From: Terriglobales bacterium | GTDB lineage: Bacteria > Acidobacteriota > Terriglobia > Terriglobales > Acidobacteriaceae | NCBI GenBank assembly: GCA_035573675.1 | Contig: DATMAB010000027.1 | Span: 186,001 to 250,000, forward strand | Length of the DNA: 64,000 bases | Direction: 5' to 3' | Shown: in pieces, positions 5,480 to 37,548 of the stretch | How positions within the stretch are numbered: position 1 is the first letter of the stretch | Layout: every line of letters starts with the position of its first letter | Translations under genes and position numbers: made by a program | Notes under the pieces: model-generated | Told to the model about the DNA's origin: nothing | Databases searched by the model: none | The model's input: the letters and a program-made list of their open reading frames with translations, nothing else

Positions 5480-5968
5480 ATGTCCTTATTGCAAGTCGGA
5501 GCGATGGCGCCCGACTTCGACCTGCCCGCGGTCACCGGCGAGCGCAAGCACCAGGTGAAACTCGCCGACTATCGCGGCAAGCAGCACGTCGTACTGGCGT
5601 TCTTTCCCGCCGCCTGGACGCCCACCTGAGCCATGCAGATGCCGGCGTACGACCGCGAGCTCGCCAGGTTCGCCGGCCTCAATGCCCAGGTGCTGGGCAT
5701 CAGCGTGGACTCGACCTTCTGCCACCTCGGCTGGCAGAAGCACGACATCGGTCTGCTGCACTACCCGCTGTGCAGCGACTTCTATCCGCACGGCGCGGTG
5801 GCGCGCGCCTACGGCGCCTTCCGCGAAGGCCCGCCCATCCCCGGCATCAACGAGCGCGCCGTGTTCGTGGTGGATAAGGACGGCAAGATCGCCTTCAGCC
5901 GCGTCTACGACCTGGGCGAGCAACCGCCCAATGCCGAGGTGTTCGCCGTGTTGGAAAAGCTGAAGTGA
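5480..5968 (+). CDS. Selenocysteine-containing peroxiredoxin (Bcp/AhpE-like), TGA = Sec at codon 50
   Basis: Reading through the in-frame TGA at 5627-5629 gives 162 residues, a complete thioredoxin-fold peroxiredoxin that reduces hydrogen peroxide or organic peroxides. The start ATG has a GGAGG site 4 bases upstream. The N-terminal half (VGAMAPDFDLPAVTGE ... YRGKQHVVLAFFPAAWTPT) and the half after the TGA (AMQMPAYDRELARFAG ... VLGISVDSTF ... LCSDFYPHG ... ERAVFVVDKDGKI) are both intact and in the same frame. The TGA falls exactly where the family motif P-x3-T-x2-C has its peroxidatic Cys (P-A-A-W-T-P-T-U). A bacterial-SECIS-like hairpin follows at 5641-5677. No Cys is found in the usual Bcp resolving position, so an external thiol probably recycles it. 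Without read-through it would be a dead gene. Sec machinery genes are not in this window. Confidence 0.85.
5641..5677 (+). promoter_or_regulatory. Bacterial SECIS element of the peroxiredoxin mRNA
   Basis: Twelve bases after the TGA, GCCGGCG (5641-5647) pairs perfectly with CGCCGGC (5671-5677). Inside, ACC (5652-5654) pairs with GGT (5667-5669), leaving a 12-base apical loop that begins with G (5655-5666). The loop starts 25 bases after the TGA. This matches the published bSECIS description: a 3-bp upper stem, a loop of 3-14 bases with G in the first two positions, and 16-37 bases from the UGA. Confidence 0.7.
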
Positions 5969-11306: not shown

Positions 11307-11738
11307 GACAGTGGCTAGGGGTCAGTGGCTCGTGCCTGGCGAAAGACCTCACCACGGAGACACGGAGGCGAGAATTAGCCGATGCCGATCCTGCTTCGTA
11401 TCAGGGTACGGCTTCAGCCGTGCCGTCTGAGATGCATAGGAGACCGGCTTTAGCCGCTGCCGAAAGTTTCTCACTCCAGTCCGTCCCATGCGGACTGCCA
11501 TTCGTCAGCTAGCACGATGATTGCGGGGAGCAGGCCTTCAGGCCTGCGGTCGGCAAATCCAAGTCCCGCCAGGGACGTCATTCGTTAGCTCAGCACGGAA
11601 GTGCTGGGTGACCAAAGGACAACGTTCGAGCGCCGCAGGCACGGCACCAACGAAGTCTGGACATTCCACAGCCCGCCGCCGTATCCTCTCGTTTCGCTTC
11701 GCCCTTACTGACACCTGACCCCTGGCCACTGACAACGG
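11307..11738. repeat. Gene-free stretch made of interspersed palindromes
   Basis: It holds a CACCACGGAGACACGGAGG copy (11349-11370), a tacggcttcagccgtgcc palindrome (11403-11425), a related ggctttagccg element (11443-11462), caggccttcaggcctg (11531-11546), and hairpins around tcccgccagggac and agcacggaagtgct (11567-11612). These belong to families repeated elsewhere in the window. No gene is seen. Confidence 0.6.
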
Positions 11739-36899: not shown

Positions 36900-36981
36900 A
36901 TGCCCAGTGTGATGTTTCGGCCTCGACGCATCGTGCGCTACCCTGAAGGCATCTTTCCCCTAGAGGAGGTGGAACGCACTC

Positions 36982-37548
36982 ATGGCACGCATCGCCGGAA
37001 TCGAGGGAAGGCAGGCGCCCTGGCTCATCCGCATGGTCATGGGCAAGGTGCGCAAGAGGATGGGCAAGGACCTGACGCCGATGAAAATCCAGGCGCGGGT
37101 GCCGCGGGTCTTCTGGGTCAACTTCCTCACCGAGCTGTTGCTGGGCCAGCGGGCGAAGGTCCCTTTGCGCCTGCGCACGCTCATCCAGATCCGCACCGCC
37201 GCGCGCGTGGGCTGCCCGTTTTGAATGGATATCAATTCTGCCGTGGGCAGAAACAATGGGCTTACCGATGACGAAATCGCGCGCATCCTGAGCAGCAGTG
37301 AAGAAGGCTTCACAGAGCCTGAGCGGCTGCTGTTGCGCATGGCCGACCAGCTCGCTGCGACGCCCGCCAATGTTTCGGAAGATCTCTTCGCGGCATTGCG
37401 CCGACACTTCAGCGACGAGCAGTTGATCGAATTCGCGGCCGCCGCCGCCCAGGAGAACTATCGCGCGCGTTTCAATCGAGCCTTCGACGTGGGCAGCGAC
37501 GGGCTGTATTGTGTAATTCCGACAAGGACCGCAGCCGCGGACGATTGA
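36982..37548 (+). CDS. Selenocysteine-containing AhpD/carboxymuconolactone decarboxylase-family protein, TGA = Sec at codon 81
   Basis: Reading through the TGA at 37222-37224 gives 188 residues, the full length of this CMD subfamily. The segment before the stop ends RTLIQIRTAARVGCPF and the next codons read MDINSAVGRNNGLTDDEI in the same frame. In homologues the site is GCPFC(M/I)DI, the CxxC redox pair of AhpD-like proteins; here it is Cys78-Pro-Phe-Sec81. The C-terminal signature LIEFAAAAAQENYRARFNRAFDVGS is complete. A SECIS-like hairpin starts 11 bases after the TGA. AhpD-type proteins reduce peroxiredoxins or act as peroxidases. A GGAGG site precedes the ATG by about 12 bases. Without read-through both halves would be non-functional. 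Confidence 0.88.
37236..37252 (+). promoter_or_regulatory. Bacterial SECIS element of the AhpD-like mRNA
   Basis: TTCTGCC (37236-37242) pairs perfectly with GGCAGAA (37246-37252) around the loop GTG (37243-37245), whose first base is G. The loop begins 18 bases after the TGA. This satisfies the bSECIS model for loop size, G position and distance. Confidence 0.75.

Follow-up and report, generated by a model that had tools for sequence, protein, structure and literature searches.

The window, by which we mean the whole 64,000-nucleotide stretch analysed here (G000:C27:186001-250000), comes from a 3.16 Mb genome that is 99% complete, and the locus of interest within it is a gene of the AhpD-like/CMD fold carrying one TGA in an otherwise open frame (Table 1). 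Taking that TGA as selenocysteine (Sec) gives a protein of 188 residues in a single frame, with homologues at 22-92% identity. The Pfam CMD profile (PF02627) matches residues 45-105 (E 3e-11, 43.5 bits against a gathering score of 23) and crosses the TGA. The frame and the match together confirm the proposal of an earlier, first-pass annotation that the frame runs unbroken through this codon. That the TGA replaces the second Cys of a CxxC site, as the same annotation had it, is borne out by the homologues, in which the site aligns with Cys.

Table 1. Positions of features in the window
Feature	Position	Strand	Basis or details
AhpD-like/CMD-fold selenoprotein gene	36982..37548	+	ATG 36982, in-frame TGA 37222-37224, terminator TGA 37546-37548; 188 aa with Sec81; Pfam CMD, homologues, AlphaFold and PDB folds
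UGA read, almost certainly, as Sec; residue 81, second position of CPFU (CxxU)	37222..37224	+	TGA at the aligned second Cys in relatives; Sec machinery in the genome
CPFU redox motif, Cys78-Pro-Phe-Sec81	37213..37224	+	
Probable ribosome-binding site, GAGGAGG	36964..36970	+	about 11 nt before the ATG; read from the sequence
Bacterial SECIS-type hairpin, TTCTGCC[GTG]GGCAGAA	37236..37252	+	7 bp; loop GTG, G first, starting after 18 bases from the UGA; conserved position and G-first loop, compensatory changes, stem codon bias
Peroxiredoxin (AhpC/TSA) with TPTU at the peroxidatic position	5480-5968; TGA 5627-5629	+	AhpC/TSA, E 1e-32
Acido-Lenti-1 RNA (RF01687)	11562-11608	-	just over the gathering score

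Relatives were collected by phylum-wide and family-wide searches, and all 47 with a readable CxxU codon, drawn from several families of the phylum, have TGA at this position. The gene-complete near relatives that we read, from many genera, each have a single TGA, which invariably aligns with the second Cys; near-clade matches lacking it come from genes cut off at a contig end or from a broken copy (L080, L017/L043). The motif is CPFU in the query clade, CVFU, CEFU, CLFU or CPFU in its sister clade, and CDYU, CEYU or CRYU in a more distant clade. The first-pass annotation had named a Cys codon at 37222 as the finding that would overturn its reading; relatives from independent genomes have TGA there instead. 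The Cys homologues that it suggested aligning do exist, with Cys at the site in L091 (CAFC) and CxxC in L025, L033, L044, L101 and L104. As judged from these alignments, the gene has what is expected of a selenoprotein, an in-frame UGA at a redox site where homologues have Cys. A search of genome contigs for related loci returned only two weak ones.

A genome lacking Sec altogether is ruled out, since the machinery whose presence the annotation had proposed checking is all there: SelA (565 bits), SelB (358 bits) and SelD (369 bits) score above their cut-offs, the SelA and SelB genes lie on the same contig as the window, and a tRNA-Sec with anticodon TCA (UCA) is present. Across genomes, selA was found in 41 of the 43 with a near-clade member versus 11 of 25 without one (Fisher p 3e-6, with related genomes counted as independent). 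In both selA-less exceptions, G399 and G458, selB scores above its cut-off and tRNA-Sec is matched above the gathering score, and we therefore take the missing SelA in each as an assembly gap. The SelD gene (L009, G000:C27:396936-397865) has an in-frame TGA of its own, in the context KAAGUASKL, and SelD is probably itself a selenoprotein.

Directly after the UGA lies a SECIS-type hairpin with G in its loop, again as expected of a selenoprotein gene, exactly where the first-pass annotation had placed a perfect 7-bp stem with loop GTG. The two strands of the window together have 1521 TGA triplets, and only 2 of them, the one at 37222 included, are followed at 15-26 nt by a hairpin of at least 7 Watson-Crick pairs whose 3-base loop starts with G. 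The folding energy of the hairpin alone is unremarkable and not significant (z = -1.35), and an Rfam search at the hairpin gave no match; SECIS elements of bacteria vary too much to be captured by one model. We regard the hairpin as more than a chance structure because of comparative evidence rather than energy: relatives have the same codon, the same hairpin and compensatory changes within it.

Among those relatives the position of the hairpin and its G-first loop are kept, and the stem leaves a clear mark on codon choice. We compared 38 sequences from the query and sister clades that encode Asp two codons past the TGA. The fifth codon of the downstream frame is TCT in 30 of the 31 cases where it encodes Ser, compared with 6% elsewhere in the same genes, and the ninth is AGA in 28 of the 30 where it encodes Arg, compared with 5% elsewhere. 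Where the Ser becomes Ala (GCT), the Arg becomes Ser (AGC), so that a U-A pair is exchanged for G-C at the price of two amino acid changes. Among 22 distinct sequences, pairing is kept in 95.5% of stem cells, and double changes occur in four of the seven stem pairs (14 double-change cells); none of 500 shuffles came up to the real alignment in double-change cells or in covariation score, and slid controls were all lower. The CxYU clade, in which the stem starts later and the loop lies two bases further on, has compensatory changes in five of seven pairs, with 10 double-change cells. One sequence, L015, was excluded from the pair count: read by eye, its stem is wholly different, yet it folds into a hairpin whose loop has a G. 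Comparison with L068, L071, L073 and L078 places this change within one genus, the L015 stem having a completely different sequence and a shifted loop while still folding, and it is a natural SECIS replacement.

Automatic gene calling would split 36982-37548 in two, at 37224/37225, and a second ATG directly follows the TGA, both of which would fit a pseudogene or a sequencing error in which the TGA either truly ends the gene or stands for a misread TGT or TGC. This carries a negligible probability against a TGA that recurs at the same codon in dozens of independent genomes, a conserved and covarying hairpin, an intact downstream protein and full Sec machinery in the genome; the comparative data refute such a reading for practical purposes, and the annotation is corrected to one gene. 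An open frame would be seen whatever the TGA encodes, which leaves decoding as some residue other than Sec, such as Trp, through a reassigned code or near-cognate readthrough. However, the position aligns with Cys in homologues, TGA also terminates this very gene, and the genome has both Sec machinery and further genes with TGA at a catalytic Cys (TPTU and TPGU in peroxiredoxins, AGUASK in SelD), so that we give this alternative next to no credence. Sec is almost certainly inserted at UGA 37222, and we consider it very likely that the product is a true selenoprotein with a CxxU redox role in general.

The AlphaFold model of the 188-residue protein has a pLDDT of 94, and its best matches among solved folds are the AhpD-like, peroxidase-related proteins 2prr (TM 0.85), 2oyo, 2ijc/2o4d (PA0269) and 3c1l, together with Bmp8. 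The profile match and the predicted helical fold place the protein in the CMD/AhpD-like fold family (PF02627). M. tuberculosis AhpD and P. aeruginosa PA0269 share the helical hairpin and have CxxC at the same place. Both are described as working through a proton relay made up of Glu, Cys, His/Tyr, Cys and His, of which the two Cys and the His do not vary among solved AhpD-like proteins (PMC3141380). They differ from the query in having Cys rather than Sec and in the relay itself: the Glu at -12 from the first Cys (Glu118) is Thr66 in the query, and the His at +4 from the second Cys or Sec (His137) is Asn85. Thus, of the first-pass assignment to an AhpD/CMD-family selenoprotein, the fold and the CxxU site stand, and the AhpD relay is absent; the name AhpD fits the protein in the former two respects only.

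Among the distinct sequences that we read, both relay residues are missing from 29 with CxxU, every one of them from the query clade or its sister (in one the sequence is too short for -12 to be read), and the classical AhpD mechanism is therefore not to be assumed for them. In the same set, 17 CxxU, 5 CxxC and 4 TxxC forms have both residues. Two CxxC sequences, L034 and L091, lack both. The idea that the relay was lost only in Sec forms is weakened by L091, a Cys form without it; L079 is a Sec form that retains both residues, and from the two we conclude that Sec and relay loss are not strictly tied. The survival of both residues in L079 makes the loss of the relay traceable, and the family as a whole sets side by side, in nature, AhpD-like sites that have Sec or Cys and that have or lack the relay, so that replacement of the relay by Sec could be tested.

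AhpD-like/CMD selenoproteins with CxxU appear in published surveys (PMC13188914, PMC2398784), in agreement with the first-pass statement that the kind was already known. The query is a member of this published kind, in an unnamed clade sister to NCBIfam NF053654. In the tree the query and sister clades are joined with support of 100/99, and the Cys form L091 falls beside the sister clade with weak support. By profile, the nearest named family is NF053654, the 'YciW-related (seleno)protein' (GroundWater_YciW), which shares with the query its length, CxFU, the Asp-Ile-Asn after Sec and the lack of the relay Glu and His; identity is 33-36%, and among the members examined the motif is CxFU-QDINAAV in place of CPFU-xDINSAV. 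The query scores 104 bits, below the NF053654 equivalog cut-off of 310, whereas the sister member L020 is above it at 324. It also falls below the cut-off for TIGR01926 peroxidase-related enzymes (35 against 81.8 bits). The AhpD-like selenoproteins of the surveys (TIGR01926 and PF02627 entries; AhpD-like 1/2 of the GOS survey) have in common with the query the CMD fold and Sec second in CxxU (PMC13188914, PMC2398784), but TIGR01926-type members (CxYU) retain Glu at -12 and His at +4, both absent from the query. What is mildly new is a clade mostly without the Glu and His thought to drive AhpD chemistry, and the gene adds to the known kind a selenoprotein clade that is well supported and whose hairpin is strict and covarying. 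Four CxYU AhpD-like selenoproteins (L024, L027, L037 and L041) have a C-terminal extension of about 100-140 residues that, from its sequence, resembles a GAF-type domain.

The machinery and the hairpin are both present, and we infer that SelB, together with Sec-tRNA(UCA), attaches to the hairpin just past UGA 37222, so that Sec is incorporated as residue 81. The product would be an all-helical AhpD-like/CMD-fold subunit with Cys78-Pro-Phe-Sec81 at the junction of two helices, acting most likely as a stand-alone thiol oxidoreductase or weak peroxidase. By analogy with the family, the Sec81 selenolate would be the nucleophile that attacks an oxidised substrate (a peroxide, a disulfide or a similar electrophile), Cys78 would resolve the product by forming a selenenylsulfide, and this could be reduced by cellular thiols or thioredoxin. 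Sec is ionised at neutral pH, and the protein may therefore do without the Glu/His relay by which AhpD activates its Cys. We somewhat favour peroxide or disulfide chemistry in particular. It is quite conceivable, if short of probable, that the CPFU-xDINSA sequences form a distinct clade in which Sec performs redox chemistry without a Glu/His relay, perhaps on a substrate other than peroxide.

Two more specific roles were weighed against this stand-alone function. As a classical AhpD, the protein would be the reductant of a partner peroxiredoxin (AhpC), possibly one of the Sec-peroxiredoxins of the same genome. The CxxU site and the fold are in keeping with such a role, as are the nine AhpC/TSA-type loci that the genome carries, of which two or more have TGA as the peroxidatic codon, but Thr66 and Asn85 stand where the relay Glu and His should be, M. 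tuberculosis AhpD is a poor structural match (TM about 0.5) and no peroxiredoxin gene is adjacent, which together make the role doubtful. Alternatively, a Sec enzyme of the same fold could carry out other chemistry, such as the reductive dehalogenation or decarboxylation of Bmp8, a CMD homologue described as dehalogenating (PMC7918430). The Bmp8 debrominase (6ohi/6ohj) is among both the closest solved folds and the sequence matches, shares the whole-chain fold (TM 0.80) and a CxxC site (CMYC in place of CPFU), and the missing AhpD Glu/His pair would suit a departure of this kind. Bmp8 differs in having Cys rather than Sec and a known pathway and substrate, and its identity to the query is 19%. 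Generic peroxidase-related structures, however, match equally well or better, and no pathway genes adjoin the locus. We consider Bmp8-like chemistry improbable. Within 1.5 kb in 23 relatives there are no conserved neighbours beyond the gene itself, the other large neighbour clusters being antisense or out-of-frame shadows of it, and a PADLOC run gave no match.

The first-pass annotation had called the protein the second selenoprotein of its window, and this holds: the peroxiredoxin with TPTU listed in Table 1 is there as well and is probably the other one meant. In the genome as a whole, five of the nine AhpC/TSA-type loci have a TGA inside an open frame, and TPGU and TPTU are clearly seen in two AhpC/TSA loci (L115 lies at G000:C27:164224-164610). 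On this sequence evidence, the genome looks rich in Sec peroxiredoxins.
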